Under the pieces are notes generated by a model that did no database searches, was not told where the DNA came from, and saw only the letters and a program-made list of their open reading frames with translations. From the NCBI GenBank assembly GCA_026874595.1, contig CM049314.1, forward strand, positions 23,385,729-23,449,728: a stretch of DNA of 64,000 nucleotides, read 5' to 3'. The position numbers and the translations under genes are program-made. The DNA comes from Sipunculus nudus (Eukaryota > Annelida > Sipuncula > Golfingiida > Sipunculidae). The stretch's first letter is position 1. Each line of letters opens with the position of its first letter. Positions 4,476 through 64,000 of the stretch are shown here, piece after piece.

Positions 4476-4877
4476 TTCAAATTTTAGTTAGCTGATTTAA
4501 TATTTAAATAGAGTATTTTTGTTATTATCATTATTGTTATTATTATTATTCATGCACCTTTTTATACTTGTATGTCTATGCATTACCTTGGATGAACACT
4601 ACAGATTTATGTATTGATTAGATTACTTTGTTTATTGTTCTGGTTCTATGGGAAGGAGGCCTTTATACCTGAAGAAAATATTTATTCATTCAATAATTTT
4701 TGCATGAAAAATGAACATATGTTTCATTGACAAAGAACAATTAGATACAGTCAATGCATTACACTCTCCAGTTTTAAGTACCTAGGCCATACACACACAC
4801 ATTTATATAACACACGATATTTTCGATGCTTTTCAGTTTCTTTTTTTTCTCGTCACACTTTCAGGGATGTGTGACGT

Positions 4878-4883
4878 TTTATT
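4878..4883 (-). promoter_or_regulatory. Candidate polyadenylation signal of the TLR gene
   Basis: The plus strand TTTATT reads AATAAA on the minus strand, about 60 bases downstream of the receptor stop codon at 4942. Its spacing suits a short 3' UTR. Chance occurrence is possible in AT-rich DNA. Confidence 0.5.
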
Positions 4884-4941
4884 GTTTCTATATGATTTTA
4901 TCACAGCTAGGTAACAGTAAAACGAATTATTATCAGAATAA

Positions 4942-6798: not shown

Positions 6799-6830
6799 GG
6801 CAGCCGTTCTCAACGCACTTCATATGCTTA

Positions 6831-34530: not shown

Positions 34531-34687
34531 AGCATTGCTTTTATTTGCTGATTTAATAATTCCGATAATATTTATTAATTTTCTTTAATCTCTTCTTAAA
34601 TGTATCATTTGTTCATGGTTCATACATTTCAAATTTATTTATTTAATATTATGTCCGTTCTCATGTAGGGGCCTGAGATTCAGCATC

Positions 34688-40012: not shown

Positions 40013-40182
40013 TTTTTTAGCTCGGCTTACTGTAAGTCATCTGAGCTATAGCGATACCCTTGTCTGTCGGCTGTCTGACCATCCGGCTGTCTGTCCCTTA
40101 ATAAGGCACAAATTGTAACCACTGGACCTGGAATCTTCTAACTTGGAAACCTGGAATTAGGTCACTGTTACCCATATTATTG
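40013..40182 (+). mobile_element. Hairpin leader and truncated first monomer of the satellite
   Basis: TTTTTTAG (40,013-40,020) runs into a hairpin whose ends are TAGCTC (40,018) and GAGCTA (40,043-40,048), with an inner palindrome CTTACTGTAAG. A CTGTC-rich stretch follows to about 40,097. From about 40,101 (ataaggcacaaattgtaacc) the sequence is a 339-bp satellite monomer entered midway, lacking about 35 bases after AATCTTCT. I recall similar TTTTTAGCTC leaders as very common in bivalve genomes. It looks like the 5' end of the element whose interior became the satellite. Confidence 0.6.
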
Positions 40183-42173
40183 TATCCCCAGACAAAGTCG
40201 GGATACTATGGTTTCACAACCGTCCGGCCGCCGCCGCCGCAGAAAAACATTGTGAGCGGGATAACTCAAAAAATGTTTCACTGATCTTTTTCAAACTTAA
40301 CATTTGTATAGATATAGGTAATGGGATGAAGCCTATTTAAAATGGGGTCATGACCTATGCTAGGAGAGTGACCTTGACCTTGAATAGGTCCATTTTTGCT
40401 GAAAATAACATAAATTCTTAAATATCTCAAGAAAGCTTGCATGGACTGATCCAAAAATCAAGGTGAGTGAAGATCTTTGATAGCCATGTGATATACCGGA
40501 AACTGGTGGCGCCACCTATTATCCTTTTCTTGTTTTTACGCCTTTTAATACCCCCATAATTGCCACTTGACAGTACTGTAAGCATTATAAGTCAAAAACT
40601 AATGGACAGATTTCTTTCATATTATGCACATGTAGAGAGATGGGTTATGGGAATAGGTCTATTTACATTTGGGTCATGACCTTTACCATGAGAGTGGCCT
40701 TGACCTTTAATGTGTCCATATTTGGTGAAAACCACACACCTCTTATGATATCTCCAGTGTTGATAGCCATATGGATTTCAAACGTGACTTATGTATGGCC
40801 CACCACTAAAGTAAGAACCCTATAGGTTCTAGGGTCATAAGGTCAAAGGTTAAGGTCACTGGACTCGCATCTTAAAAGATACTGTGGATGCATTTTAAGC
40901 CAAATATTCATCCCAGGTCTTCCATCTTGAATATATACCTCACTTGCCAATAGTGGATGATCCATATCAAATTTGCGGTCACAAGGTCAAAGGTCAAGGC
41001 CACTGGAGCTATCTGTCAAAAAAATAGTTTCTGGATGATAATTCCTGCTTTTATTGATGTATTGATTTCAAACTTGACTAATATATGTCCAATTGAAAAA
41101 GCAAGACTCCAATTGATTTTGGGATCATGAGGTCAAAGGTCAAGGTCACAGGACACATCTTTAAAAAGATTGTGGATGCATTTTCAGCCAAACATTTCAT
41201 CTCAGACCTTTCATCTTGCACATTTAGTTAATCTGCCAATAGAGGAAGACCCCTACCAAATTTGAGGTCACAAGGTCAAAGGTCAAGGTCACAGGAGCCA
41301 TCTGTCCAAAAATTAGTTTCTGGATGATAATTCCTGCTTTTATTGATGTATGGATTTCAAACTTGACTTGTATATGACCCATTGGAAAAGCAAGACCCGA
41401 ATTAATTATGGGGTCATGAGGTCAAAGGTCAAGATTACAGGACACATCTTTAAAAAGATTGTGGATGCATTTTCAGCAAAACAATTCATCTCAGATCTTT
41501 CATCCTGCACATATAGTTCACCTGCCAAGAGAGGAAGACCCCTATCAATTTTGAGGTCACAAGGTCAAAGGTGAAGGTCACAGGAGCCATCTGTCCAAAA
41601 ATTAGTTTCTGGATGATAATTCCTGCTTTTATTGATGTATGGATTTCAAACTTGACTTGTTTATGTCCCATAGGAAAAGCAAGCCCCGAATTGATTTTGG
41701 GGTCATGAGGTCAACGGTCAAGGTCACAGGACACATCTTTAAAAAGATGTGGATACACTTTCAGCCAAACATTTCATCTCAGATCTTTCATCTTGCACAT
41801 ATAGTTCACCTGCAAAGAGAGGAAGAACCCTATCAATTTTGAGGTAACAAGGTCAAAGGTGAAGGTCACAGGAGCCATCTGTTCAAAAATTAGTTTCTGG
41901 ATGTTAATACCTGCTTTTATTGATGTATAGATTTCAAACTTGACTTGTATATGTCCCATTGGAAAAGCAAGACCCAAATTGATTTTGGGGTCATGAGGTC
42001 AAAGGTCACAGGACACATCTTTAAAAAAATCAAGGTCACAGGACCAACATCTTCAGAAAGATTGTGGATTGGTAGATGGAAGAAACAATAATTGCTTGCC
42101 AAGTGTCAGTATATGCTGCTAAAAATGGGGGCCTATTCTTAAAGGGGTGGTGGGCGTAATATGTCTGGGGATA
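40183..42173 (+). mobile_element. 2-kb element with 12-bp terminal inverted repeats inserted in the satellite
   Basis: TATCCCCAGACA (40,183-40,194) and its exact complement TGTCTGGGGATA (42,162-42,173) bound the insert. The left end folds again (GTATCCC with GGGATAC). Outside, the left flank ends in satellite sequence (gttacccatattattg) and the right flank resumes it (actatggagctccgaag). The insert therefore splits one monomer. Inside are two copies of a roughly 330-bp unit (from about 40,290 and 40,620) and then the 289-bp array. There is no open frame for an enzyme. The architecture (hairpin ends, internal tandem array, no coding capacity) is like the Pearl/Helitron-related elements described in bivalves. 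Superfamily not proven. Confidence 0.75.
40760..42075 (+). repeat. 289-bp tandem repeat rich in AGGTCA half-sites
   Basis: CTGGATGATAATTCC starts at 41,031, 41,320 and 41,609, with CTGGATGTTAATACC at 41,897, so the period is 288-289 bp over about 4.5 units. Each unit has two half-units of about 145 bp. Each half-unit carries one block like AAGGTCAAAGGTCAAGGTCA, so about nine blocks lie between 40,829 and 42,015. Confidence 0.9.
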
Positions 42174-42484
42174 TATCTAGTTCAAACTATGGAGCTCCGA
42201 AGTACCCCCCAGAATAATGAAACATTTGATACAAAAGCTCAAATATCTGAACAACTAATGCATTGATCGCCATGATTCTTTGCATGGATATTTATCATAT
42301 TTTCTGCAAACTGGTGGCGCCACCTGTATTTTTTTATTTGTTACGATATTTTTTCTCTGTTTTTGAGACCTCAAATGATGCCGTCATCTGTTAACAGAGC
42401 ACAAATAGTAACCACTGGATCTGGAATCTACCCACTTTACATCCAGAGAGGTCCATTAAAAGTCTTCTTGGAAACCTGGAATTA

Positions 42485-43560
42485 GGTGTCTGTTACCCAT
42501 ATTCTTCCATCTATGGGGCTCCCCAGCACCCCCCCCCCCCCCAGAATAATGAAAAATTTGATACAAATGCTCAAATATCTGAATAACTCATGCATCGATC
42601 ACCATGAATCTTTGCATGGATATTGATTATGGAGCGTTTCATCAGTTTCTGCAGACTGGTGGCACCTACTGTATTTTTTTTTAAATTTTTATGATTTTTT
42701 ACTCTATTTTTGAGACCTCAGAAGATGCCGTCATATGTTAACAGGGCACAAATCTTAACCACTGGTCCTTGAATCTTCTCACTTTACATCCAGAGAGGTA
42801 CATGAAAAGTCATCTTGGTATCCTGGAATTAGGTCTCTGTTACCCATATTCTTCCATCTATGGGGCTCCGAAGTACCTCCCAGAATAATAAAAAATTTGA
42901 TACAAAAGCTCAAGTATCTGAACAACTAATACGTTGATCACCATGATTCTTTGCATGGATATTAATCATGGAATGTTTTATCAGTTTCTGCAGACTGGTG
43001 GCCCTATCTTTCTTTTTTCGATTTTTTACAATTTTCTTTCTGTTTTTGAGACCTCAAAAGATGCCGTCATCTGTTAACTAGGCACAAATCTTAACACCTA
43101 GACCTGGAATCTTCTCACATTACTTCCAAAGAGGTCCAAAGAAAAGTCTTCTTGTAAACCTGAAAATAGGTCTCTGTTACCAATATTCTTCCAACTATGG
43201 GGCTCCCCAGTACCCGCCAGAATAATAAAAAATTTGACACAAAAGCTCAAGTATCTGAACAACTAATTCATTGATCACCATAATTCTTTGCACCAATATT
43301 GATCATTGAGTGTTTTATCAGTTTCTGCAGACTGGTGGTGCAACCTGTATTTTTTTATTTGTTACGATTTTTTTTCTCTGTTTTTGGGACCTCAAAAGAT
43401 GCCGTCATCTGTTAACAGGGCACAAATTGAACCGCTGGACCTGGAATCTTCTCACTTTACATCCAGAGAGGTCCATGAAAAGTCTTCTTGGAAACCTGGA
43501 ATTAGGTCTCTGTTACCAATATTCTTCCATCTATGGGGCTCGAAGTACCCCCCCGATTTA
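42485..43560 (+). repeat. A-B-C monomer cassette, copy 1
   Basis: Three diagnostic monomers in order: A (GGTGGCACCTACTG, ACCTCAGAAGATG), B (GGTGGCCCTATCTTTC, TTAACACCTAGACC) and C (GGTGGTGCAACC, TTTTTGGGACC). The left edge is the change ATTAGGTGTC followed by a long C run. The right edge is a C run followed by GATTTATAAAAA. Confidence 0.9.
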
Positions 43561-46500
43561 TAAAAAATTTGATACAAAAGCTCAAATATCTGAACAACTA
43601 ATGCATTGATCACCATGATTCTTTGCACGAATATATATCATGGAGTGTTTTATCAGTTTCTGCAGACTGTTGGCGCAACCTGTATTTTTTTTATTTTTTA
43701 CAATTTTTTTCTCTATTTTTGAGACCACAAAAGATGCTGTCATCTGTTAACAGGGCACAAATCATAACCGCTGGACCTGGAATCTTCTCCCTTTACATCA
43801 GAGAGGTACATGAAAAGTCTTCTTTGAAACCTGGAATTAGGTCTCTGTTACCCATATTCTTCCATCTATGGGGCTCAGCAGTACCCCCCAGAATAATAAA
43901 AAAATTGATACAAAAGCTCAAATATCTGAACAACTAATGCATTGATCACCATGATTCTTTGCACGAATATATATCATGGAGTGTTTTATCAGTTTCTGCA
44001 GACTGTTGGCGCAACCTGTATTTTTATATTTTTTTACAATTTTTTTTCTCTGTTTTTGAGACCTCAAAAGATGCCGTGATCTGTTAACAGGGCACAGATC
44101 GTAACAGCTACACCTGGAATCTTCTCACTTTACATCCAGAGAGGTACATGAAAAGTCTTCTTGGAAACCTCGAATTAGGTCTCTGTTACCCATTTTCTTC
44201 CATCTATGGGGCTCCCCAGTACCCCCCAGAATAATAAATAATTTGATACAAAAGCTCAAATTTCTGAACAACTAATGCATTGAACACCATGATTATTTGC
44301 TTGGATATTAATCATGGAATGTTTTATCAGTTTCTGCAGACTGGTGGCCCCATCTCTATTTTTTTTTATTTTTTACGATTTTTTTTCTCTGTTTTTGAGA
44401 CCTCAAAAGATGCCGTGATCTGTTAACAGGGCACAGATCGTAACCGCTGGACCTGGAATCTTTTCACTTTACATTCAGAGAGGTACATGAAAAGTCTTCT
44501 TGGAAACCTCGAATTAGGTCTCTGTTACCCATATTCTTCCATCTATGGGGCTCAGCAGTACCCCCCAGAATAATAAAAAAATTGATACAAAAGCTCAAAT
44601 ATCTGAACAACTAATGCATTGATCACCATGATTCTTTGCACGAATATTTATCATGGATTGTTTTATCAGTTTCTGCAGACTGGTGGCGCCACCTGTATTT
44701 TTTTTATTTTTTACGATTTTTTTTCTCTGTTTTTGAGACCTCAAAAGATGCCGTGATCTGTTAACAGGGCACAGATCGTAACCGCTGGACCTGGAATCTT
44801 TTCACTTTACATTCAGAGAGGTCCATGAAAAGTCTTCTTGTAAACCTGGAATTAGGTCTCTGTTACCCATATTCTTCCATCTATGGGGCTCAGCAGTACC
44901 CCCCAGAATAATAAAAAAATTGATACAAAAGCTCAAATATCTGAACAACTAATGCATTGATCACCATGATTCTTTGCACGAATATATATCATGGAGTGTT
45001 TTATCAGTTTCTGCAGACTGTTGGCGCAACCTGTATTTTTATATTTTTTTACAATTTTTTTTCTCTGTTTTTGAGACCTCAAAAGATGCCGTGATCTGTT
45101 AACAGGGCACAGATCGTAACCGCTGGACCTGGAATCTTCTCACTTTACATTCAGAGAGGTCCATGAAAAGTCTTCTTGTAAACCTGGAATTAGGTCTCTG
45201 GTACCCATATTCTTCCATCTATGGGGCTCAGCAGTACCCCCCAGAATAATAAAAAAAATTGATACAAAAGCTCAAATATCTGAACAACTAATGCATTGAT
45301 CACCATGATTCTTTGCATGAATATATATCATGGAGTGTTTTATCAGTTTCTGCAGACTGTTGGTGCAACCTGTATTTTTTTTATTTTTTACAATTTTTTT
45401 CTCTATTTTTGAGACCACAAAAGATGCTGTCATCTGTTTACAGGGCACAAATCGTAACAGCTACACCTGGAATCTTCTCACTTTACATCCAGAGAGGTAC
45501 ATGAAAAGTCTTCTTGGAAACCTCGAATTAGGTCTCTGTTACCCATTTTCTTCCATCTATGGGGCTCGAAGTACACCCCAGAATAATAAATAATTTGATA
45601 CAAAAGCTCAAATTTCTGAACAACTAATGCATTGAACACCATGATTATTTGCTTGGATATTAATCATGGAATGTTTTATCAGTTTCTGCAGACTGGTGGC
45701 CCGAACTCTATTTTTTCGATTTTTCACAATTTTTTTACTCTGTTTTTGAGACCTCAAAAGATGCGGTGATCTGTTAGCAGGGCACAAATCGAAACTCCTG
45801 GACCTGGAATCTTCTCCCTTTACATTCAGAGAGGTCCATGAAAAGTCTTCTTGTAAACCTGGAATTAGGTCTCTGTTACCCATATTCTTCCATCTATGCA
45901 TGGGGCTCTGCAGTACCCCCCAGAATAATAAAAAAATTTGATACAAAAGCTCAAATATCTGAACAACTAATGCATTGATCACCATGATTCTTTGCACGAA
46001 TATTTATCATGGATTGTTTTATCAGTTTCTGCAGACTGGTGGCGCCACCTGTATTTTTTTTATTTTTTACGATTTTTTTTCTCTTTTTTGATGCCTCAAA
46101 AGATGCTGTCATCTGTTTACAGGGCACAAATCGTAACCGCTGGACCTGGAATCTTCTCACTTTACATCCAGAGAGGTACATGAAAAGTCTTCTTGGAAAC
46201 CTCGAATTAGGTCTCTGTTACCCATTTTCTTCCATCTATGGGGCTCCCCAGTACCCCCCAGAATAATAAATAATTTGATACAAAAGCTCAAATTTCTGAA
46301 CAACTAATGCATTGAACACCATGATTATTTGCTTGGATATTAATCATGGAATGTTTTATCAGTTTCTGCAGACTGTTGGCCCCATCTCTATTTTTTCGAT
46401 TTTTCACAATTTTTTTTCTCTGTTTTTGAGACCTCAAAAGATGCCGTGATCTGTTAACAGGGCACAGATCGTAACCGCTGGACCTGGAATCTTTTCACTT

Positions 46501-47721
46501 TACATTCAGAGAGGTCCATGAAAAGTCTTCTTGTAAACCTGGAATTCGGTCTCTGTTACCCATATTCTTCCATCTATGGGGCTCAGCAGTACCCCCCAGA
46601 ATAATAAAAAAATTGATACAAAAGCTCAAATATCTGAACAACTAATGCATTGATCACCATGATTCTTTGCACGAATATATATCATGGAGTGTTTTATCAG
46701 TTTCTGCAGACTGTTGGCGCAACCTGTATTTTTTAATTTTTTTTACAATTTTTTTTCTCTGTTTTTGAGACCTCAAAAGATGCCGTGATCTGTTAACAGG
46801 GCACAGATCGTAACCGCTGGACCTGGAATCTTCTCACTTTACATTCAGAGAGGTCCATGAAAAGTCTTCTTGTAAACCTGGAATTAGGTCTCTGGTATCC
46901 ATATTCTTCCATCTATGGGGCTCAGCAGTACCCTCAAGAAAAATAAAAAAAATTGATACAAAAGCTCAAATATCTGAACAACTAATGCATTGATCACCAT
47001 GATTCTTTGCACGAATATATATCATGGAGTGTTTTATCAGTTTCTGCAGACTGTTGGTGCAACCTGTATTTTTTTTATTTTTTACAATTTTTTTCTCTAT
47101 TTTTGAGACCACAAAAGATGCTGTCATCTGTTTACAGGGCACAAATCGTAACAGCTACACCTGGAATCTTCTCACTTTACATCCAGAGAGGTACATGAAA
47201 AGTCTTCTTGGAAACCTCGAATTAGGTCTCTGTTACCCATTTTCTTCCATCTATGGGGCTCGAAGTACACCCCAGAATAATAAATAATTTGATACAAAAG
47301 CTCACATTTCTGAACAACTAATGCATTGAACACCATGATTATTTGCTTGGATATTAATCATGGAATGTTTTATCAGTTTCTGCAGACTGGTGGCGCCATC
47401 TCTATTTTTTCGATTTTTCACAATTTTTTTTCTCTGTTTTTGAGACCTCAAAAGATGCGGTGATCTGTTAGCAGGGCACAAATCGTAACCCCTGGACCTG
47501 GAATCTTCTCCCTTTACATTCAGAGAGGTCCATGAAAAGTCTTCTTGTAAACCTGGAATTAGGTCTCTGTTACCCATATTCTTCCATCTATGGGGCTCAG
47601 CAGTACCCCCCCCCCCCCAGAATAATAAAAAATTTGATACAAAAGCTCAAATATCTGAACAACTAATGCATTGATCACCATGATTCTTTGCATGAATATA
47701 TATCATGGAGTGTTTTATCAG

Positions 47722-49762
47722 TTTCTGCAGACAGTTGGTGCAACCTGTATTTTTTTTATATTTTACAATTTTTTTCTCTATTTTTGAGACCTCAAAATAT
47801 GCTGTCATCTGTTAACAGGGCACAAATCATAACTGCTGGACCTGGAATCTTCTCACTTTACATCAGAGACGTACATGAAAAGTCTTCTTTGAAATCTGGA
47901 ATTAGGTCCCTGTTACCCATATTCTTCCATCTATGCATTGGGCTCCGCAGTACCCCCCAGAATAATAAAAAAATTTGATACAAAAGCTCAAATATCTGAA
48001 CAACTAATGCATTGATCACCATGATTCTTTGCACGAATATTTATCATGGAGTGTTTTATCAGTTTCTGCAGACTGTTGGTGCAACCTGTATTTTTTTTAT
48101 TTTTTACAATTTTTTTCTCTATTTTTGAGACCACAAAAGATGCTGTCATCTGTTTACAGGGCACAAATCATAACAGCTACACCTGGAATCTTCTCACTTT
48201 ACATCCAGAGAGGTACATGAAAAGTCTTCTTGGAAACCTCGAATTAGGTCTCTGTTACCCATTTTCTTCCATCTATGGGGCTCGAAGTACACCCCAGAAT
48301 AATAAATAATTTGATACAAAAGCTCACATTTCTGAACAACTAATGCATTGAACACCATGATTATTTGCTTGGATATTAATCATGGAATGTTTTATCAGTT
48401 TCTGCAGACTGGTGGCCCGAACTCTATTTTTTCGATTTTTCACAATTTTTTTTCTCTGTTTTTGAGACCTCAAAAGATGCGGTGATCTGTTAGCAGGGCA
48501 CAAATCGTAACCCCTGGACCTGGAATCTTCTCCCTTTACATTCAGAGAGGTCCATGAAAAGTCTTCTTGTAAACCTGGAATTAGGTCTCTGTTACCCATA
48601 TTCTTCCATCTATGGGGCTCAGCAGTACCCCCCCCCCCAGAATAATAAAAAAATTTGATACAAAAGCTCAAATATCTGAACAACTAATGCATTGATCACC
48701 ATGATTCTTTGCATGAATATATATCATGGAGTGTTTTATCAGTTTCTGCAGACAGTTGGTGCAACCTGTATTTTTTTTATATTTTACAATTTTTTTCTCT
48801 ATTTTTGAGACCTCAAAATATGCTGTCATCTGTTAACAGGGCACAAATCATAACTGCTGGACCTGGAATCTTCTCACTTTACATCAGAGACGTACATGAA
48901 AAGTCTTCTTTGAAATCTGGAATTAGGTCCCTGTTACCCATATTCTTCCATCTATGCATTGGGCTCCGCAGTACCCCCCAGAATAATAAAAAAATTTGAT
49001 ACAAAAGCTCAAATATCTGAACAACTAATGCATTGATCACCATGATTCTTTGCACGAATATTTATCATGGAGTGTTTTATCAGTTTCTGCAGACTGTTGG
49101 TGCAACCTGTATTTTTTTTATTTTTTACAATTTTTTTCTCTATTTTTGAGACCACAAAAGATGCTGTCATCTGTTTACAGGGCACAAATCATAACAGCTA
49201 CACCTGGAATCTTCTCACTTTACATCCAGAGAGGTACATGAAAAGTCTTCTTGGAAACCTCGAATTAGGTCTCTGTTACCCATTTTCTTCCATCTATGGG
49301 GCTCGAAGTACACCCCAGAATAATAAATAATTTGATACAAAAGCTCAAATTTCTGAACAACTAATGCATTGAACACCATGATTATTTGCTTGGATATTAA
49401 TCATGGAATGTTTTATCAGTTTCTGCAGACTGGTGGCCCGAACTCTATTTTTTCGATTTTTCACAATTTTTTTTCTCTGTTTTTGAGACCTCAAAAGATG
49501 CGGTGATCTGTTAGCAGGGCACAAATCGAAACCCCTGGACCTGGAATCTTCTCCCTTTACATTCAGAGAGGTCCATGAAAAGTCTTCTTGTAAACCTGGA
49601 ACTAGGTCTCTGTTACCCATATTCTTCCATCTACGCATGGGGCTCTGCAGTACCCCCCAGAATAATAAAAAAATTTGATACAAAAGCTCAAATATCTGAA
49701 CAACTAATGCATTGATCACCATGATTCTTTGCAGGAATATTTATCATGGATTGTTTTATCAG
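47722..49762 (+). repeat. Three-monomer higher-order unit (about 1,021 bp), two copies
   Basis: 47,722-48,742 and 48,743-49,762 are near-identical trimers. The first monomer has CAGACAGTTGGTGC and CTCAAAATATGCTG, the second GACTGTTGGTGC, the third GGTGGCCCGAACTC and GCGGTGATCTGTTAGCAGG. The few differences include the C-run length. Confidence 0.9.
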
Positions 49763-50779
49763 TTTCTGCAGACTGGTGGCGCCACCTGTATTTTTTTTAT
49801 TTTTTACGATTTTTTTTCTCTTTTTTGATGCCTCAAAAGATGCTGTCATCTGTTTACAGGGCACAAATCGTAACAGCTACACCTGGAATCTTCTCACTTT
49901 ACATCCAGAGAGGTACATGAAAAGTCTTCTTGGAAACCTCGAATTAGGTCTCTGTTACCCATTTTCTTCCATCTATGGGGCTCCCCAGTACCCCCCAGAA
50001 TAATAAATAATTTGATACAAAAGCTCAAATTTCTGAACAACTAATGCATTGAACACCATGATTATTTGCTTGGATATTAATCATGGAATGTTTTATCAGT
50101 TTCTGCAGACTGGTGGCCCGAACTCTATTTTTTCGATTTTTCACAATTTTTTTTCTCTGTTTTTGAGACCTCAAAAGATGCGGTGATCTGTTAGCAGGGC
50201 ACAAATCGAAACCCCTGGACCTGGAATCTTCTCCCTTTACATTCAGAGAGGTCCATGAAAAGTCTTCTTGTAAACCTGGAATTAGGTCTCTGTTACCCAT
50301 ATTCTTCCATCTATGCATGGGGCTCTGCAGTACCCCCCAGAATAATAAAAAAATTTGATACAAAAGCTCAAATATCTGAACAACTAATGCATTGATCACC
50401 ATGATTCTTTGCAGGAATATTTATCATGGATTGTTTTATCAGTTTCTGCAGACTGGTGGAGCCACCTGTATTTTTTTTATTTTTTACGATTTTTTTTCTC
50501 TTTTTTGATGCCTCAAAAGATGCTGTCATCTGTTTACAGGGCACAAATCGTAACAGCTACACCTGGAATCTTCTCACTTTACATCCAGAGAGGTACATGA
50601 AAAGTCTTCTTGGAAACCTCGAATTAGGTCTCTGTTACCCATTTTCTTCCATCTATGGGGCTCCCCAGTACCCCCCAGAATAATAAATAATTTGATACAA
50701 AAGCTCAAATTTCTGAACAACTAATGCATTGAACACCATGATTATTTGCTTGGATATTAATCATGGAATGTTTTATCAG
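49420..50779 (+). repeat. Two-monomer higher-order unit (680 bp), two copies
   Basis: 49,420-50,099 and 50,100-50,779 each contain a monomer with GGTGGCCCGAACTC followed by one with GGTGG(c/a)GCCACC and TTTTTTGATGCCTC. Confidence 0.9.
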
Positions 50780-53700
50780 TTTCTGCAGACTGGTGGCCCC
50801 ATCTCTATTTTTTCGATTTTTCACAATTTTTTTTCTCTGTTTTTGAGACCTCAAAAGATGCCGTGATCTGTTAACAGGGCACAGATCGTAACCGCTGGAC
50901 CTGGAATCTTTTCACTTTACATTCAGAGAGGTCCATGAAAAGTCTTCTTGGAAACCTGGAATTAGGTCTCTGTTACCCATATTCTTCCATCTATGGGGCT
51001 CAGCAGTACCCCCCAGAATAATAAAAAAATTGATACAAAAGCTCAAATATCTGAACAACTAATGCATTGATCACCATGATTCTTTGCACGAATATATATC
51101 ATGGAGTGTTTTATCAGTTTCTGCAGACTGTTGGCGCAACCTGTATTTTTTTATTTTTTTACAATTTTTTTTCTCTGTTTTTGAGACCTCAAAAGATGCC
51201 GTGATCTGTTAACAGGGCACAGATCGTAACCGCTGGTCCTGGAATCTTCTCACTTTACATTCAGAGAGGTCCATGAAAAGTCTTCTTGTAAACCTGGAAT
51301 TAGGTCTCTGGTACCCATATTCTTCCATCTATGGGGCTCAGCAGTACCCCCCAGAATAATAAAAAAAATTGATACAAAAGCTCAAATATCTGAACAACTA
51401 ATGCATTGATCACCATGATTCTTTGCACGAATATATATCATGGAGTGTTTTATCAGTTTCTGCAGACTGTTGGTGCAACCTGTATTTTTTTTATTTTTTA
51501 CAATTTTTTTCTCTATTTTTGAGACCACAAAAGATGCTGTCATCTGTTTACAGGGCACAAATCGTAACAGCTACACCTGGAATCTTCTCACTTTACATCC
51601 AGAGAGGTACATGAAAAGTCTTCTTGGAAACCTCGAATTAGGTCTCTGTTACCCATTTTCTTCCATCTATGGGGCTCGAAGTACACCCCAGAATAATAAA
51701 TAATTTGATACAAAAGCTCAAATTTCTGAACAACTAATGCATTGAACACCATGATTATTTGCTTGGATATTAATCATGGAATGTTTTATCAGTTTCTGCA
51801 GACTGGTGGCCCCATCTCTATTTTTTCGATTTTTCACAATTTTTTTTCTCTGTTTTTGAGACCTCAAAAGATGCGGTGATCTGTTAGCAGGGCACAAATC
51901 GTAACCCCTGGACCTGGAATCTTCTCCCTTTACATTCAGAGAGGTCCATGAAAAGTCTTCTTGTAAACCTGGAATTAGGTCTCTGTTACCCATATTCTTC
52001 CATCTATGCATGGGGCTCTGCAGTACCCCCCAGAATAATAAAAAAATTTGATACAAAAGCTCAAATATCTGAACAACTAATGCATTGATCACCATGATTC
52101 TTTGCAGGAATATTTATCATGGATTGTTTTATCAGTTTCTGCAGACTGGTGGCGCCACCTGTATTTTTTTTATTTTTTACAATTTTTTTTCTCTTTTTTG
52201 ATGCCTCAAAAGATGCTGTCATCTGTTTACAGGGCACAAATCGTAACAGCTACACCTGGAATCTTCTCACTTTACATCCAGAGAGGTACATGAAAAGTCT
52301 TCTTGGAAACCTCGAATTAGGTCTCTGTTACCTATTTTCTTCCATCTATGGGGCTCCCCAGTACCCCCCCGATAATAATAAATAATTTGATACAAAAGCT
52401 CAAATTTCTGAACAACTAATGCATTGAACACCATGATTATTTGCATGGATATTAATCATGGAATGTTTTATCAGTTTCTGCAGACTGGTGGCCCCATCTC
52501 TATTTTTTCGATTTTTCACAATTTTTTTTCTCTGTTTTTGAGACCTCAAAAGATGCCGTGATCTGTTAACAGGGCACAGATCGTAACCGCTGGACCTGGA
52601 ATCTTTTCACTTTACATTCAGAGAGGTCCATGAAAAGTCTTCTTGTAAACCTGGAATTAGGTCTCTGTTACCCATATTCTTCCATCTATGGGGCTCAGCA
52701 GTACCCCCCAGAATAATAAAAAAATTGATACAAAAGCTCAAATATCTGAACAACTAATGCATTGATCACCATGATTCTTTGCACGAATATATATCATGGA
52801 GTGTTTTATCAGTTTCTGCAGACTGTTGGCGCAACCTGTATTTTTTTATTTTTTTACAATTTTTTTTCTCTGTTTTTGAGACCTCAAAAGATGCCGTGAT
52901 CTGTTAACAGGGCACAGATCGTAACCGCTGGACCTGGAATCTTCTCACTTTACATTCAGAGAGGTCCATGAAAAGTCTTCTTGTAAACCTGGAATTAGGT
53001 GTCCCTTACCCATATTCTTCCATCTATGGGGCTCCCCAGCACCCCCCCCCCCCCAGAATAATGAAAAATTTGATACAAATGCTCAAATATCTGAATAACT
53101 CATGCATCGATCACATTGAAACTTTGCATGGATATTGATTATGGAGCGTTTCATCAGTTTCTGCAGACTGGTGGCACCTACTGTATTTTTTTTAATTTTT
53201 ATGATTTTTTACTCTATTTTTGAGACCTCAGAAGATGCCGTCGTCTGTTAACAGGGCACAAATCTTAACCACTGGTCCTTGAATCTTCTCACTTTACATC
53301 CAGAGAGGTACATGAAAAGTCATCTTGGTATCCTGGAATTAGGTCTCTGTTACCCATATTCTTCCATCTATGGGGCTCCGAAGTACCTCCCAGAATAATA
53401 AAAAATTTGATACAAAAGCTCAAGTATCTGAACAACTAATACGTTGATCACCATGATTCTTTGCATGGATATTAATCATGGAATGTTTTATCAGTTTCTG
53501 CAGACTGGTGGCCCTATCTTTCTTTTTTCGATTTTTTACAATTTTTTTTCTGTTTTTGAGACCTCAAAAGATGCCGTCATCTGTTAACTAGGCACAAATC
53601 TTAACACCTAGACCTGGAATCTTCTCACATTACTTCCAAAGAGGTCCAAAGAAAAGTCTTCTTGTAAACCTGAAAATAGGTCTCTGTTACCCATATTCTT

Positions 53701-54848
53701 CCAACTATGGGGCTCCCCAGTACCTGCCAGAATAATAAAAAATTTGACACAAAAGCTCAAGTATCTGAACAACTAATTCATTGATCACCATAATTCTTTG
53801 CACCAATATTGATCATTGAGTGTTTTATCAGTTTCTGCAGACTGGTGGTGCAACCTGTATTTTTTTATTTGTTACGATTTTTTTTCTCTGTTTTTGGGAC
53901 CTCAAAAGATGCCGTCATCTGTTAACAGGGCACAAATTGAACCGCTGGACCTGGAATCTTCTCACTTTACATCCAGAGAGGTCCATGAAAAGTTTTCTTG
54001 GAAACCTTGAATTAGGTCTCTGTTACCAATATTCTTCCATCTATGGGGCTCGAAGTACCCCCCCCCCGATTTATAAAAAATTTGATACAAAAGCTCAAAT
54101 ATCTGAACAACTAATGCATTGATCACCATGATTCTTTGCACGAATATGTATCATGGAGTGTTTTATCAGTTTCTGCAGACTGTTGGCGCAACCTGTATTT
54201 TTTTTTATTTTTTACAATTTTTTTCTCTATTTTTGAGACCACAAAAGATGCTGTCATCTGTTAACAGGGCACAAATCATAACCGCTGGACCTGGAATCTT
54301 CTCACTTTACATCAGAGAGGTACATGAAAAGTTTTCTTTGAAACCTGGAATTAGGTCTCTGTTACCCATATTCTTCCATCTATGCATGGGGCTCTGCAGT
54401 ACCCCCCAGAATAATAAAAAAATTTGATACAAAAGCTCAAATATCTGAACAACTAATGCATTGATCACCATGATTCTTTGCAGGAATATTTATCATGGAT
54501 TGTTTTATCAGTTTCTGCAGACTGGTGGCGCCACCTGTATATTTTTTATTTTTTACGATTTTTTTTCTCTTTTTTGATGCCTCAAAAGATGCTGTCATCT
54601 GTTTACAGGGCACAAATCGTAACAGCTACACCTGGAATCTTCTCACTTTACATCCAGAGAGGTACATGAAAAGTCTTCTTGGAAACCTCGAATTAGGTCT
54701 CTGTTACCCATTTTCTTCCATCTATGGGGCTCCCCAGTACCCCCCAGAATAATAAATAATTTGATACAAAAGCTCAAATTTCTGAACAACTAATGCATTG
54801 AACACCATGATTATTTGCTTGGATATTAATCATGGAATGTTTTATCAG
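50780..54848 (+). repeat. 12-monomer superunit, copy 1 (4,069 bp)
   Basis: The monomer order by diagnostic words is F-E-D'-H-G-F-E-A-B-C-D-G. F: GGTGGCCCCATCTC with CCGTGATC. E: GTTGGCGCAACC with CCGTGATC. D': GTTGGTGCAACC with ACAAAAGATGCTG. H: TTAGCAGGGCAC. G: GGTGGCGCCACC with GATGCCTC. The A-B-C cassette lies at 52,998-54,075. Confidence 0.9.
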
Positions 54849-57800
54849 TTTCTGCAGACTGGTGGCCCCATCTCTATTTTTTCGATTTTTCACAATTTTT
54901 TTTCTCTGTTTTTGAGACCTCAAAAGATGCCGTGATCTGTTAACAGGGCACAGATCGTAACCTCTGGACCTGGAATCTTTTCACTTTACATTCAGAGAGG
55001 TCCATGAAAAGTCTTCTTGTAAACCTGGAATTAGGTCTCTGTTACCCATATTCTTCCATCTATGGGGCTCAGCAGTACCCCCCAGAATAATAAAAAAATT
55101 GATACAAAAGCTCAAATATCTGAACAACTAATGCATTGATCACCATGATTCTTTGCACGAATATATATCATGGAGTGTTTTATCAGTTTCTGCAGACTGG
55201 TGGCGCAACCTGTATTTTTTTATTTTTTTACAATTTTTTTTCTCTGTTTTTGAGACCTCAAAAGATGCCGTGATCTGTTAACAGGGCACAGATCGTAACC
55301 GCTGGTCCTGGAATCTTCTCACTTTACATTCAGAGAGGTCCATGAAAAGTCTTCTTGTAAACCTGGAATTAGGTCTCTGGTACCCATATTCTTCCATCTA
55401 TGGGGCTCAGCAGTACCCCCCAGAATAATAAAAAAAATTGATACAAAAGCTCAAATATCTGAACAACTAATGCATTGATCACCATGATTCTTTGCACGAA
55501 TATATATCATGGAGTGTTTTATCAGTTTCTGCAGACTGTTGGTGCAACCTGTATTTTTTTTATTTTTTACAATTTTTTTCTCTATTTTTGAGACCACAAA
55601 AGATGCTGTCATCTGTTTACAGGGCACAAATCGTAACAGCTACACCTGGAATCTTCTCACTTTACATCCAGAGAGGTACATGAAAAGTCTTCTTGGAAAC
55701 CTCGAATTAGGTCTCTGTTACCCATTTTCTTCCATCTATGGGGCTCGAAGTACACCCCAGAATAATAAATAATTTGATACAAAAGCTCAAATTTCTGAAC
55801 AACTAATGCATTGAACACCATGATTATTTGCTTGGATATTAATCATGGAATGTTTTATCAGTTTCTGCAGACTGGTGGCCCCATCTCTATTTTTTCGATT
55901 TTTCACAATTTTTTTTCTCTGTTTATGAGACCTCAAAAGATGCGGTGATCTGTTAGCAGGGCACAAATCGTAACCCCTGGACCTGGAATCTTCTCCCTTT
56001 ACATTCAGAGAGGTCCATGAAAAGTCTTCTTGTAAACCTGGAATTAGGTCTCTGTTACCCATATTCTTCCATCTATGCATGGGGCTCTGCAGTACCCCCC
56101 AGAATAATAAAAAAATTTGATACAAAAGCTCAAATATCTGAACAACTAATGCATTGATCACCATGATTCTTTGCAGGAATATTTATCATGGATTGTTTTA
56201 TCAGTTTCTGCAGACTGGTGGCGCCAACTGTATTTTTTTTATTTTTTACGATTTTTTTTCTCTTTTTTGATGCCTCAAAAGATGCTGTCATCTGTTTACA
56301 GGGCACAAATCGTAACAGCTACACCTGGAATCTTCTCACTTTACATCCAGAGAGGTACATGAAAAGTCTTCTTGGAAACCTCGAATTAGGTCTCTGTTAC
56401 CCATTTTCTTCCATCTATGGGGCTCCCCAGTACCCCCCAGAATAATAAATAATTTGATACAAAAGCTCAAATTTTTGAACAACTAATGCATTGAAAACCA
56501 TGATTATTTGCATGGATATTAATCATGGAATGTTTTATCAGTTTCTGCAGACTGGTGGCCCCATCTCTATTTTTTCGATTATTCACAATTTTTTTTCTCT
56601 GTTTTTGAGACCTCAAAAGATGCCGTGATCTGTTAACAGGGCACAGATCGTAACCGCTGGACCTGGAATCTTTTCACTTTACATTCAGAGAGGTCCATGA
56701 AAAGTCTTCTTGTAAACCTGGAATTAGGTCTCTGTTACCCATATTCTTCCATCTACGGGGCTCAGCAGTACCCCCCAGAATAATAAAAAAATTGATACAA
56801 AAGCTCAAATATCTGAACAACTAATGCATTGATCACCATGATTCTTTGCACGAATATATATCATGGAGTGTTTTATCAGTTTCTGCAGACTGTTGGCGCA
56901 ACCTGTATTTTTTTATTTTTTTTTTACAATTTTTTTTCTCTGTTTTTGAGACCTCAAAAGATGCCGTGATCTGTTAACAGGGCACAGATCGTAACCGCTG
57001 GACCTGGAATCTTCTCACTTTACATTCAGAGAGGTCCATGAAAAGTCTTCTTGTAAACCTGGAATTAGGTGTCTGTTACCCATATTCTTCCATCTATGGG
57101 GCTCCCCAGCACCCCCCCCCCCCCAGAATAATGAAAAATTTGATACAAATGCTCAAATATCTGAATAACTCATGCATCGATCACCATGAATCTTTGCATG
57201 GATATTGATTATGGAGCGTTTCATCAGTTTCTGCAGACTGGTGGCACCTACTGTATTTTTTTTAATTTTTATGATTTTTTACTCTATTTTTGAGACCTCA
57301 GAAGATGCCGTCGTCTGTTAACAGGGCACAAATCTTAACCACTGGTCCTTGAATCTTCTCACTTTACATCCAGAGAGGTACATGAAAAGTCATCTTGGTA
57401 TCCTGGAATTAGGTCTCTGTTACCCATATTCTTCCATCTATGGGGCTCCGAAGTACCTCCCAGAATAATAAAAAATTTGATACAAAAGCTCAAGTATCTG
57501 AACAACTAATACGTTGATCACCATGATTCTTTGCATGGATATTAATCATGGAATGTTTTATCAGTTTCTGCAGACTGGTGGCCCTATCTTTCTTTTTTCG
57601 ATTTTTTACAATTTTTTTTCTGTTTTTGAGACCTCAAAAGATGCCGTCATCTGTTAACTAGGCACAAATCTTAACACCTAGACCTGGAATCTTCTCACAT
57701 TACTTCCAAAGAGGTCCAAAGAAAAGTCTTCTTGTAAACCTGAAAATAGGTCTCTGTTACCCATATTCTTCCAACTATGGGGCTCCCCAGTACCCGCCAG

Positions 57801-58917
57801 AATAATAAAAAATTTGACACAAAAGCTCAAGTATCTGAACAACTAATTCATTGATCACCATAATTCTTTGCACCAATATTGATCATTGAGTGTTTTATCA
57901 GTTTCTGCAGACTGGTGGTGCAACCTGTATTTTTTTATTTGTTAAGATTTTTTTTCTCTGTTTTTGGGACCTCAAAAGATGCCGTCATCTGTTAACAGGG
58001 CACAAATTGAACCGCTGGACCTGGAATCTTCTCACTTTACATCCAGAGAGGTCCATGAAAAGTCTTCTTGGAAACCTGGAATTAGGTCTCTGTTACCAAT
58101 ATTCTTCCATCTATGGGGCTCGAAGTACCCCCCCCCCCCGATTTATAAAAAATTTGATACAAAAGCTCAAATATCTGAACAACTAATGCATTGATCACCA
58201 TGATTCTTTGCACGAATATATATCATGGAGTGTTTTATCAGTTTCTGCAGACTGTTGGCGCAACCTGTATTTTTTTATTTTTTTACAATTTTTTTTCTCT
58301 GTTTTTGAGACCTCAAAAGATGCCGTGATCTGTTAACAGGGCACAGATCGTAACCGCTGGACCTGGAATCTTCTCACTTTACATTCAGAGAGGTCCATGA
58401 AAAGTCTTCTTGTAAACCTGGAATTAGGTCTCTGGTACCCATATTCTTCCATCTATGGGGCTCAGCAGTACCCCCCAGAATAATAAAAAAAATTGATACA
58501 AAAGCTCAAATATCTGAACAACTAATGCATTGATCACCATGATTCTTTGCACAAATATTTATCATGGATTGTTTTATCAGTTTCTGCAGACTGGTGGCGC
58601 CACCTGTATTTTTTTTATTTTTTACGATTTTTTTTCTCTTTTTTGATGCCTCAAAAGATGCTGTCATCTGTTTACAGGGCACAAATCGTAACAGCTACAC
58701 CTGGAATCTTCTCACTTTACATCCAGAGAGGTACATGAAAAGTCTTCTTGGAAACCTCGAATTAGGTCTCTGTTACCCATTTTCTTCCATCTATGGGGCT
58801 CCCCAGTACCCCCCAGAATAATAAATAATTTGATACAAAAGCTCAAATTTCTGAACAACTAATGCATTGAACACCATGATTATTTGCTTGGATATTAATC
58901 ATGGAATGTTTTATCAG
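54849..58917 (+). repeat. 12-monomer superunit, copy 2 (4,069 bp)
   Basis: The same order and the same length as copy 1. The A-B-C cassette is at 57,068-58,148. The eleventh monomer is of E type here where copy 1 has D, and the second monomer has GGTGGCGCAACC. These differences suggest gene conversion or exchange inside the array. Confidence 0.9.
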
Positions 58918-61297
58918 TTTCTGCAGACTGGTGGCCCCATCTCTATTTTTTCGATTTTTCACAATTTTTTTTCTCTGTTTTTGAGACCTCAAAAGATGCC
59001 GTGATCTGTTAACAGGGCACAGATCGTAACCGCTGGACCTGGAATCTTTTCACTTTACATTCAGAGAGGTCCATGAAAAGTCTTCTTGGAAACCTGGAAT
59101 TAGGTCTCTGTTACCCATATTCTTCCATCTATGGGGCTCAGCAGTACCCCCCAGAATAATAAAAAAATTGATACAAAAGCTCAAATATCTGAACAACTAA
59201 TGCATTGATCACCATGATTCTTTGCACGAATATATATCATGGAGTGTTTTATCAGTTTCTGCAGACTGTTGGCGCAACCTGTATTTTTTTATTTTTTTTT
59301 TACAATTTTTTTTCTCTGTTTTTGAGACCTCAAAAGATGCCGTGATCTGTTAACAGGGCACAGATCGTAACCGCTGGACCTGGAATCTTCTCACTTTACA
59401 TTCAGAGAGGTCCATGAAAAGTCTTCTTGTAAACCTGGAATTAGGTGTCTGTTACCCATATTCTTCCATCTATGGGGCTCCCCAGCACCCCCCCCCCCCC
59501 CAGAATAATGAAAAATTTGATACAAATGCTCAAATATCTGAATAACTCATGCATCGATCACCATGAATCTTTGCATGGATATTGATTATGGAGCGTTTCA
59601 TCAGTTTCTGCAGACTGGTGGCACCTACTGTATTTTTTTTAATTTTTATGATTTTTTACTCTATTTTTGAGACCTCAGAAGATGCCGTCGTCTGTTAACA
59701 GGGCACAAATCTTAACCACTGGTCCTTGAATCTTCTCACTTTACATCCAGAGAGGTACATGAAAAGTCATCTTGGTATCCTGGAATTAGGTCTCTGTTAC
59801 CCATATTCTTCCATCTATGGGGCTCCGAAGTACCTCCCAGAATAATAAAAAATTTGATACAAAAGCTCAAGTATCTGAACAACTAATACGTTGATCACCA
59901 TGATTCTTTGCATGGATATTAATCATGGAATGTTTTATCAGTTTCTGCAGACTGGTGGCCCTATCTTTCTTTTTTCGATTTTTTACAATTTTTTTTCTGT
60001 TTTTAAGACCTCAAAAGATGCCATCATCTGTTAACTAGGCACAAATCTTAACACCTAGACCTGGAATCTTCTCACATTACTTCCAAAGAGGTCCAAAGAA
60101 AAGTCTTCTTGTAAACCTGAAAATAGGTCTCTGTTACCCATATTCTTCCAACTATGGGGCTCCCCAGTACCCGCCAGAATAATAAAAAATTTGACACAAA
60201 AGCTCAAGTATCTGAACAACTAATTCATTGATCACCATAATTCTTTGCACCAATATTGATCATTGAGTGTTTTATCAGTTTCTGCAGACTGGTGGTGCAA
60301 CCTGTATTTTTTTATTTGTTAAGATTTTTTTTCTCTGTTTTTGGGACCTCAAAAGATGCCGTCATCTGTTAACAGGGCACAAATTGAACCGCTGGACCTG
60401 GAATCTTCTCACTTTACATCCAGAGAGGTCCATGAAAAGTCTTCTTGGAAACCTGGAATTAGGTCTCTGTTACCAATATTCTTCCATCTATGGGGCTCGA
60501 AGTACCCCCCCCCCCCCGATTTATAAAAAATTTGATACAAAAGCTCAAATATCTGAACAACTAATGCATTGATCACCATGATTCTTTGCACGAATATATA
60601 TCATGGAGTGTTTTATCAGTTTCTGCAGACTGTTGGCGCAACCTGTATTTTTTTTATTTTTTACAATTTTTTTCTCTATTTTTGAGACCACAAAAGATGC
60701 TGTCATCTGTTAACAGGGCACAAATCATAACCGCTGGACCTGGAATCTTCTCACTTTACATCAGAGAGGTACATGAAAAGTCTTCTTTGAAACCTGGAAT
60801 TAGGTCTCTGTTACCCATATTCCTCCATCTATGCATGGGGCTCTGCAGTACCCCCCAGAATAATAAAAAAATTTGATACAAAAGCTCAAATATCTGAACA
60901 ACTAATGCATTGATCACCATGATTCTTTGCAGGAATATTTATCATGGATTGTTTTATCAGTTTCTGCAGACTGGTGGCGCCACCTGTATATTTTTTATTT
61001 TTTACGATTTTTTTTCTCTTTTTTGATGCCTCAAAAGATGCTGTCATCTGTTTACAGGGCACAAATCGTAACAGCTACACCTGGAATCTTCTCACTTTAC
61101 ATCCAGAGAGGTACATGAAAAGTCTTCTTGGAAACCTCGAATTAGGTCTCTGTTACCCATTTTCTTCCATCTATGGGGCTCCCCAGTACCCCCCAGAATA
61201 ATAAATAATTTGATACAAAAGCTCAAATTTCTGAACAACTAATGCATTGAACACCATGATTATTTGCTTGGATATTAATCATGGAATGTTTTATCAG
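58918..61297 (+). repeat. Superunit deletion form, 7 monomers (2,380 bp)
   Basis: F-E-A-B-C-D-G, that is the superunit without its first five monomers. The A-B-C cassette is at 59,444-60,532. It is followed by F-E-G-F-E-D'-H-G to the window end. Confidence 0.85.
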
Positions 61298-64000
61298 TTT
61301 CTGCAGACTGGTGGCCCCATCTCTATTTTTTCGATTTTTCACAATTTTTTTTCTCTGTTTTTGAGACCTCAAAAGATGCCGTGATCTGTTAACAGGGCAC
61401 AGATCGTAACCGCTGGACCTGGAATCTTTTCACTTTACATTCAGAGAGGTCCATGAAAAGTCTTCTTGTAAACCTGGAATTAGGTCTCTGTTACCCATAT
61501 TCTTCCATCTATGGGGCTCAGCAGTACCCCCCAGAATAATAAAAAAATTGATACAAAAGCTCAAATATCTGAACAACTAATGCATTGATCACCATGATTC
61601 TTTGCACGAATATATATCATGGAGTGTTTTATCAGTTTCTGCAGACTGTTGGCGCAACCTGTATTTTTTTATTTTTTTACAATTTTTTTTCTCTGTTTTT
61701 GAGACCTCAAAAGATGCCGTGATCTGTTAACAGGGCACAGATCGTAACCGCTGGACCTGGAATCTTCTCACTTTACATTCAGAGAGGTCCATGAAAAGTC
61801 TTCTTGTAAACCTGGAATTAGGTCTCTGGTACCCATATTCTTCCATCTATGGGGCTCAGCAGTACCCCCCAGAATAATAAAAAAAATTGATACAAAAGCT
61901 CAAATATCTGAACAACTAATGCATTGATCACCATGATTCTTTGCACAAATATTTATCATGGATTGTTTTATCAGTTTCTGCAGACTGGTGGCGCCACCTG
62001 TATTTTTTTTATTTTTTACGATTTTTTTTCTCTTTTTTGATGCCTCAAAAGATGCTGTCATCTGTTTACAGGGCACAAATCGTAACAGCTACACCTGGAA
62101 TCTTCTCACTTTACATCCAGAGAGGTACATGAAAGTCTTCTTGGAAACCTCGAATTAGGTCTCTGTTACCCATATTCTTCCATCTATGGGGCTCCCCAGT
62201 ACCCCCCAGAATAATAAATAATTTGATACAAAAGCTCAAATTTCTGAACAACTAATGCATTGAACACCATGATTATTTGCTTGGATATTAATCATGGAAT
62301 GTTTTATCAGTTTCTGCAGACTGGTGGCCCCATCTCTATTTTTTCGATTTTTCACAATTTTTTTTCTCAGTTTTTGAGACCTCAAAAGATGCCGTGATCT
62401 GTTAACAGGGCACAGATCGTAACCGCTGGACCTGGAATCTTTTCACTTTACATTCAGAGAGGTCCATGAAAAGTCTTCTTGGAAACCTGGAATTAGGTCT
62501 CTGTTACCCATATTCTTCCATCTATGGGGCTCAGCAGTACCCCCCAGAATAATAAAAAAATTGATACAAAAGCTCAAATATCTGAACAACTAATGCATTG
62601 ATCACCATGATTCTTTGCACGAATATATATCATGGAGTGTTTTATCAGTTTCTGCAGACTGTTGGCGCAACCTGTTTTTTTTTTTATTTTTTTACAATTT
62701 TTTTTCTCTGTTTTTGAGTCCTCAAAAGATGCCGTGATCTGTTAACAGGGCACAGATCGTAACCGCTTGTCCTGGAATCTTCTCACTTTACATTCAGAGA
62801 GGTCCATGAAAAGTTTTCTTGTAAACCTGGAATTAGGTCTCTGGTACCCATATTCTTCCATCTATGGGGCTCAGCAGTCCCCCCCAGAATAATAAAAAAA
62901 ATTGATACAAAAGCTCAAATATCTGAACAACTAATGCATTGATCACCATGATTCTTTGCACGAATATATATCATGGAGTGTTTTATCAGTTTCTGCAGAC
63001 TGTTAGTGCAACCTGTATTTTTTTTATTTTTTACAATTTTTTTCTCTATTTTTGAGACCACAAAAGATGCTGTCATCTGTTTACAGGGCACAAATCGTAA
63101 CAGCTACACCTGGAATCTTCTCACTTTACATCCAGAGAGGTACATGAAAAGTCTTCTTGGAAACCTCGAATTAGGTCTCTGTTACCCATTTTCTTCCATC
63201 TATGGGGCTCGAAGTACACCCCAGAATAATAAATAATTTGATACAAAAGCTCAAATTTCTGAACAACTAATGCATTGAACACCATGATTATTTGCTTGGA
63301 TATTAATCATGGAATGTTTTATCAGTTTCTGCAGACTGGTGGCCCCATCTCTATTTTTTCGATTTTTCACAATTTTTTTTCTCTGTTTATGAGACCTCAA
63401 AAGATGCGGTGATCTGTTAGCAGGGCACAAATCGTAACCCCTGGACCTGGAATCTTCTCCCTTTACATTCAGAGAGGTCCATGAAAAGTCTTCTTGTAAA
63501 CCTGGAATTAGGTCTCTGTTACCCATATTCTTCCATCTATGCATGGGGCTCTGCAGTACCCCCCAGAATAATAAAAAATTTTGATACAAAAGCTCAAATA
63601 TCTGAACAACTAATGCATTGATCACCATGATTCTTTGCAGGAATATTTATCATGGATTGTTTTATCAGTTTCTGCAGACTGGTGGCGCCACCTGTATTTT
63701 TTTTATTTTTTACGATTTTTTTTCTCTTTTTTGATGCCTCAAAAGATGCTGTCATCTGTTTACAGGGCACAAATCGTAACAGCTACACCTGGAATCTTCT
63801 CACTTTACATCCAGAGAGGTACCTGAAAAGTCTTCTTGGAAACCTCGAATTAGGTCTCTGTTACCCATTTTCTTCCATCTATGGGGCTCCCCAGTACCCC
63901 CCAGAATAATAAATAATTTGATACAAAAGCTCAAATTTCTGAACAACTAATGCATTGAACACCATGATTATTTGCATGGATATTAATCATGGAATGTTTT

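Follow-up and report, generated by a model that had tools for sequence, protein, structure and literature searches.

Repeats carried by Helentrons have been proposed as a source of satellites in shellfish and flies. In Drosophila, Dias et al. (2015) are said to have described a satellite derived from DINE-TR1, the repeats of which expand into satellite. In primates, the higher-order repeats of alpha satellite consist of units of several diverged monomers at ~99% identity, and they occur with shortened variants and hybrid monomers. According to the accessible parts of the papers cited throughout this text, the Cg_HINE elements of the Pacific oyster, which are non-autonomous Helentrons (HINEs), have a left module with a 5' subterminal inverted repeat (subTIR) and a complementary inverted repeat (IR), then satellite DNA-like repeats, and then a 3' subTIR with a palindrome. 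A GTCY/GTCC microsatellite is present in several of these elements, and insertion is at TT without target-site duplication (PMC7492417). The longest array in the oyster study had 29.3 monomers, arrays of five or more made up ~9% of the sample, and the phrase "higher order" is absent from the accessible part of its text (PMC7492417). The DINE-1/HINE elements of arthropods (Drosophila, mites) have 13-bp subTIRs, an IR near the 5' subTIR, a microsatellite, a 3' palindrome, and a T-rich target (PMC4067079). The oyster satellite Cg170/HindIII (~166-170 bp) is found both inside Helitron-superfamily elements and standing alone (PMC5139131, PMC8268682). For mollusc satellites, the formation of higher-order units by unequal crossing-over of subrepeats has been discussed (PMC5874043). 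The accessible open-access literature on higher-order repeats in molluscs, bivalves, and Helitrons describes Helitron-borne satellites and subrepeats, and no HINE-borne higher-order array in a mollusc. In this study, we analyzed a 64,000-nucleotide stretch of Sipunculus nudus DNA (C9:23385729-23449728, hereafter the window; genome of 1.43 Gb in 153 contigs), which contains a 338-bp tandem array with a local 12-monomer superunit of 4,069 bp. The comparison of this array with dispersed elements suggests that it is probably the overgrown inner tandem repeat of one HINE.

Tandem Repeats Finder (TRF) detected a single 338-bp array running from 42187 through the window end, an earlier start than the 50.8 kb given in the initial annotation of this DNA. 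The site TTTCTGCAGACT was used for cutting; its 61 occurrences, together with three near-sites added by hand, gave 64 monomers in the window with a mean pairwise identity of 91.5%. The window numbering was carried 30 kb further downstream, and positions beyond 64000 are given in these extended coordinates. The array reaches 75891 with 99 contiguous monomers, and the satellite restarts twice past inserted elements, at 78490-80513 and at 84552-85143. The locus holds ~107 monomers in total over ~36 kb, at 23.43 Mb of a 79.8-Mb contig. The idea that the monomer is a dimer (338 = 2 x 169) was not supported: its two halves matched with a best score of 26, and shuffled sequences averaged 25.4 and reached 45. 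The array and its left edge comprise the following features.

42187..64000, plus strand: 338-bp tandem array within the window, defined by TRF, monomer cutting, and extension; the 64 window monomers are counted from 42301.
40014..40182, plus strand: HINE head, with T-run, hairpin (5' subTIR and IR), degenerate GTCC-type microsatellite, and the start of a first monomer.
40183..42173, no strand assigned: 1991-bp insertion splitting the first monomer, with 12-bp perfect terminal inverted repeats TATCCCCAGACA/TGTCTGGGGATA and a TRF minisatellite inside.

The genome was searched with the superunit, and 38 of 18,994 candidates were scored. Among these 38 listed matches, one was the array itself past 78487 and the other 37 were places dispersed across 15 contigs, whose main matches were at 80-88%; the list is without the array's own near-identical continuation at 64001-75891 (C9:23449729-23461619). 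Twenty-two of the 37 dispersed places (L001 and L012-L032) were retrieved with their flanks. They share a common architecture, consisting of a T-run, the hairpin AGCTCAGCTGACTGTAAGTCATCTGAGCT, a GTCC-type microsatellite, 338-bp monomers (often with partial ones), the tail GGCTGAGCGTCATGACCCATGGGTCACTTG, and TT. Each locus contained 3-13 monomers, and where both ends were present (13 loci) the number was 4-9, with the nine monomers of L021 belonging to two neighbouring elements; the minimum aligned monomer length was 300 bp in the architecture scan and 280 bp in the strict end scan. The strict end scan of the 22 loci detected the tail in 20, the full head hairpin in 14, and both in 13, and in a looser scan of the first 18 loci, 17 had one or both head arms and 18 had the tail. 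TT stood immediately 3' of the tail in 20/20 cases. The sequence ahead of the head was T-rich in 14/14, with four or five T's in 13 and TTTCT in one. The 13-bp subTIRs of head (GCTCAGCTGACTG) and tail (CAGTCGGCTGAGC) are reverse complements with one mismatch. A complementary IR arm lies a few bases past the 5' subTIR and is followed by the microsatellite; the head hairpin has a folding energy of -10.6 kcal/mol (z -4.5), and the tail contains the perfect palindrome TGACCCATGGGTCA.

The monomers of these elements were also compared by position. First monomers matched first monomers in 15 of 18 elements, a count reached by none of 1000 shuffles (shuffled mean 2.8), and last monomers matched last monomers in 12 of 18, which was reached by one of 1000 shuffles (shuffled mean 2.8). 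We left out the row L019_1, which had bad coordinates and no sequence, the rows L019_2-6, which come from a near-identical duplicate element, and the rows L021_1-2 of a second element, and EXT2 and the long array were excluded from the element counts. These results indicate that monomer order is kept when the elements spread. At the L019 locus (C8:13034500-13043000), element copies occupy 1-2547 and 2941-5885, with compared monomers 99.4-100% identical and the first 46 right-flank bases identical; this pair is a recent local duplication of ~3.3 kb. At L015 (C14:38600000-38609900), a dispersed element has a higher-order tandem of its own at positions ~4076-6690, in which a unit of ~880 bp (2.6 monomers) is present three times with monomers 98-99% alike.

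The left edge of the array was then compared with the dispersed elements. The five dispersed heads that matched best were 89-91% identical to the head at 40014 over 163-168 bp (gaps not counted), with a match score of 201, while 20 shuffles (6 loci) scored at most 29. When the flanks were rejoined across the 1991-bp insert, the head, first monomer, and array were colinear with an L014 element. Since the head is in register and the alignment with L014 is colinear, the array most likely begins inside a HINE. The insert itself is probably a DNA transposon, non-autonomous and of a different type; its inner minisatellite (289 bp, 40770-42017) is rich in GGTCAAAGGTCAAGGTCA. Between 42187 and 75891, no head, tail, or microsatellite was found (best matches with 16/33, 14/30, and 7/16 mismatches, respectively). 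As this stretch contains no element ends, growth would have taken place among the inner monomers. For all of the 102 long-array monomers compared, the best match was an interior element monomer, in L012 for 101 of them, at 87.7-92.3% identity.

Two HINE-ended insertions of 2598 and 4038 bp lie in T-runs of the array, and in both cases the joined flanks rebuild a monomer except for T-run length and scattered mismatches. Insertion is thus between T's, and target sites are not duplicated beyond these T's. The 2598-bp element contains open stretches of up to 106 aa. The 4038-bp insertion is probably composite, with further head-like motifs inside. A 166-bp array is present within an inserted HINE at 83759-84396; its unit corresponds to the 338-bp monomer at positions 75-239 and is near the usual monomer length of oyster HINEs. 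A short inverted piece follows the last satellite piece, which ends at 85143. Taken together, the most likely reading of these sequences is that unequal exchange enlarged the inner array of a HINE, into which further HINEs inserted.

The internal order of the array was examined in the part where the initial annotation had described a 4,069-bp unit occurring twice and then a 7-monomer form. All three were found, as follows.

50780..54848, plus strand: 12-monomer superunit copy 1, 4069 bp, composed of the 5-mer M-I-J-K-L and the 7-mer M-P-B-C-D-Q-L.
54849..58917, plus strand: 12-monomer superunit copy 2, 4069 bp, 99.0% identical to copy 1, with an I-type monomer at position 11.
58918..61297, plus strand: lone 7-monomer module, 2380 bp, a mosaic of copies 1 and 2.

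Cutting at TTTCTGCAGACT, clustering, and self-matching, the check that the annotation had suggested, showed a 4069 lag beyond that of 338. Within 50780-61297, lag 4069 gave the strongest self-match (0.562), followed by lags 2376 (0.465) and 338 (0.459). Copies 1 and 2 differ by 39 mismatches and 14 gap columns (identity calculated without gaps). Superunit monomers in register were on average 99.0% identical and those out of register 90.8%, with an out-of-register maximum of 99.7% because type M is present twice per unit. The units are far more alike than their constituent monomers, as is characteristic of a higher-order repeat. The repeated monomer order stands for the overall register, but not for monomer 11, which is only 95.3% identical between the two copies; the version in copy 2 is 98.8% identical to position 2. 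The exactly equal unit length also stands, but both superunits are 4069 bp because four indels compensate, the paired monomers being 339/337, 345/348, 338/340, and 342/339 bp long. When the 7-monomer form was compared with positions 6-12 of the superunit, its identity was 99.4% for unit 1 and 99.0% for unit 2. Gaps aside, its positions 7, 8, and 10 are identical to unit 2 and its positions 8 and 12 to unit 1, and its position 11 is 99.4% identical to unit 1 and 95.0% to unit 2.

The order was also evaluated for all 99 contiguous monomers. With divergence limited to 2%, the longest diagonal runs comprised 13 monomers (lag 5) and 11 monomers (lag 12), and the longest run in 300 shuffles of monomer order was 4. 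The identity at lag 12 averaged over the 99 monomers was 0.9246, and the best lag of 2000 shuffles had a mean of 0.9225 and a maximum of 0.9296. Lags 19 and 22 were above the shuffled range (0.9309 and 0.9306). Since the whole-array average at lag 12 falls inside the shuffled range, the 12-mer is not the rule of the whole array. These results demonstrate that the 12-mer order is real, but a local feature.

Clustering of 104 monomers gave 25 types at a cut-off of 2%, 32 at 1.5%, and 18 at 3%. The superunit comprises ten types at the 2% cut-off, in agreement with the "ten or so" first proposed, although the type number varies with the cut-off. Positions 2 and 7, which had been given the same letter, are in fact types I and P, ~92-94% alike with a common first half. 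At 2% clustering, the order across 50780-70421 is MIJKL MPBCDQL MIJKL MPBCDIL MPBCDQL MIL MRJKL MPBCSIJKL MIJKL MIJKL, where we set the module borders ourselves by cutting between L and M; the order deviates upstream of 50780 and downstream of 70421. Three further features of the window belong to this order.

42301..43992, plus strand: array-start block A-B-C-D-E, the presumed donor for the middle of the 7-mer module.
61298..62310, plus strand: 3-monomer stretch M-I-L (2% typing).
62311..64000, plus strand: 5-mer variant M-R-J-K-L, the last monomer of which ends at 64005, beyond the window.

The 12-mer is composed of a 5-mer module and a 7-mer module. The 7-mer had been interpreted as a deletion form lacking the first five monomers; it does have seven monomers, but a reading with two interchangeable modules, of which it is one, is preferable, because the 5-mer is also present by itself beyond the window and the 7-mer is derivable from it. 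The array-start monomers B, C, and D are 99.1-99.4% identical to their counterparts in the 7-mer. Type P corresponds to the first half of I and the second half of A, with 1-6 mismatches against 20-25 to the better single parent, and Q corresponds to E and then K, with 2-3 mismatches against 12-13. The 7-mer thus looks like a 5-mer with its middle swapped for four monomers' length from the array start: mid-I to mid-K (two monomers) is replaced by mid-A to mid-E (four), which gives seven. Its origin can be explained by a pair of unequal exchanges or by a single repair event in which the template was switched twice, and the data fit both. Type S is D joined to M, H, or E (equal fits), with one mismatch against 13 to the best single type, and the 9-mer is a fusion via this chimeric monomer. 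The array also contains a 5-monomer tandem at 99.6%. The exchange of large blocks that had been suggested is borne out by the chimeric monomers at the module joints and by the copy at 58918, a mosaic of the two preceding units.

A two-parent chimera test placed 51 of the 104 monomers, among which those of the same type are not independent, at the permutation floor (p = 0.005). As the test admits every type consensus as a parent, it does not tell parent from product. The ranges within which P, Q, and S break have consensus positions 173-189 in common, and F and H break at other places (106-114 and 47-60, respectively). This overlap concerns three of five hand-examined joints, with other types breaking elsewhere; P and Q are two ends of one proposed event, and the density of informative sites is not factored in.

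These data are consistent with the following course of events. An element with a handful of monomers would have landed at the locus, and its inner array would then have grown to ~107 monomers through unequal sister exchange or template switching between monomers. The 5-mer module may have arisen first and the 7-mer next, by the replacement described above, and the 12-, 9-, and 3-mer combinations would follow from these two modules. HINEs inserted into T-runs of the array, presumably at a later time in this course. No host function is proposed; we regard the locus as a selfish sequence turning into a local satellite. Tentatively, a single Helentron may be seen here in transition to a satellite, given the head and first-monomer start at the left edge, more than 100 monomers, readable modules, and recurrent joints. 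As part of this tentative reading, joints recurring at consensus 173-189 would suggest that the repeat contains a site prone to recombination.

Several observations weigh against the derivation of the array from one HINE. A tail of the monomer-bearing type, as expected of the parent element, was sought at the far end and not found; tail-like termini are present at 88222 and 88394, and the sequence preceding them is unlike the tails of monomer-bearing elements. The segment 42187-42375, past the insert, was on average 83.0% identical to first monomers and 81.1% to others, with best values of 87.1% and 87.2%. Because the expected tail was not found and the type of this segment is ambiguous, the locus is called HINE-derived only, and it is not an intact HINE. 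The mean best identity to the long array was 88.0% for first, 88.3% for interior, and 83.8% for last monomers. Since first monomers are as close as interior ones, an interior origin leans on the best matches, mostly to L012. The 44-nt end containing the tail palindrome had a z of -0.5, with 56/200 shuffles folding as well. The superunit search is incomplete, so other close or long arrays cannot be called absent. The nearness of the first monomers, the far end without the expected tail, and HINEs sitting inserted in the array would also fit an unlikely account, in which a free-standing satellite is older and HINEs captured short stretches of it and spread them. Helitrons do take up tandem repeats, with standalone and element-borne forms coexisting (PMC8268682). 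However, the HINE head and the start of the first monomer are in register at the array's left edge, the dispersed elements have first and last monomer types in common, and 11 of 18 last monomers are less than 84.5% identical to anything in the long array. With shared end types and such distant last monomers, the elements are not simple slices of the long array.

Instead of sister crossover, Helentron rolling-circle replication or reinsertion of an extrachromosomal circle could have formed the blocks, which we consider quite unlikely. Helitrons are able to leave tandem copies (PMC8268682, PMC7492417), and the 5-monomer tandem at 99.6% would fit the reinsertion of a circle. However, a simple circle insertion would leave the block between two monomers of one type and the 7-mer is flanked by I and K, and the 33.7-kb stretch has no recurrence of head, tail, or microsatellite, hence no whole-element circles; a tandem of whole elements formed by rolling circle was ruled out for 42187-75891 on this ground. 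A further objection to our interpretation is that the superunits may be an assembly artefact, with haplotypes or repeated read paths joined in tandem. Allelic differences in bivalves are of the order of 1%, and the divergence between the units is of this size. Such an artefact is nevertheless very improbable: the units show 39 substitutions and 14 gap columns relative to each other and do not share the type of monomer 11, stretches of 3, 5, 7, 9, and 12 monomers with chimeric joints are unlike the product of one mis-join, and L015, a separate locus, has its own ~880-bp tandem. It is extremely improbable that the array is a centromere or an element of chromosome structure in which the order is kept by selection as in alpha satellite. 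The higher-order arrangement resembles that of centromeric alpha satellite, but the array covers only ~36 kb at an interior position of the contig. In addition, chromatin immunoprecipitation of the C. gigas centromere reportedly showed no centromere-specific repeat, according to the accessible text (PMC8268682). We therefore retain the derivation of the array from the inner repeat of one HINE as the probable reading.

The window contains several features outside the array. On the minus strand, an open frame of 625 aa, measured from stop to stop, spans 4942-6819; it contains leucine-rich repeats as well as a TIR domain (PF13855, PF01582) and looks like a single-exon Toll-like receptor gene. A 558-aa open frame on the plus strand at 34589-36265 had no Pfam match at E <= 0.001; it may resemble a FAST-kinase-domain (mitochondrial RNA) protein. 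At 36894-37453, a 194-bp unit is repeated 2.9 times at 100% matches and is therefore a very recent or an assembly duplication. No RNA families were found in the window at gathering score, and no tRNA was found in a scan run with bacterial settings.

In the accessible sources, the step from few monomers to a long array has so far been inferred from separate loci. Here, a head, a start block, modules, chimeric joints, and insertions lie on one contig, which makes the order of events testable, and one locus may show the birth of a satellite from a mobile element. If this is true, higher-order order needs neither a megabase array nor, as far as is known here, a centromere. Like alpha-satellite higher-order repeats, the array has multi-monomer units at ~99%, shortened variants, and hybrid monomers, whereas its 338-bp monomer, its extent of tens of kb rather than megabases, and its probable mobile-element origin differ. 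The comparison with alpha satellite made at the outset thus holds for the higher-order arrangement, but it missed the setting, in which the monomer is the internal repeat of HINE-type elements. Unlike the DINE-TR1 case of Drosophila, the head, the expansion, and the module history are together at one locus. The dispersed elements share the plan of Cg_HINE, but their monomer is 338 bp, where that of Cg_HINE is mostly 140-180 bp, and ~107 monomers follow one head at the present locus, compared with 29.3 at most in the oyster (PMC7492417). The end plan is the same as that of arthropod DINE-1/HINE, in other animals and with other sequence (PMC4067079). As with Cg170/HindIII, monomers are found inside Helitron-superfamily elements and standing alone, although the monomer is 338 bp here (PMC5139131, PMC8268682). 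The mollusc work on higher-order units treats, in its accessible part, subrepeats within monomers (PMC5874043), whereas a multi-monomer order stands beside a HINE head in the present case. In these respects, the locus is a known kind of element array that is unusually long and ordered.

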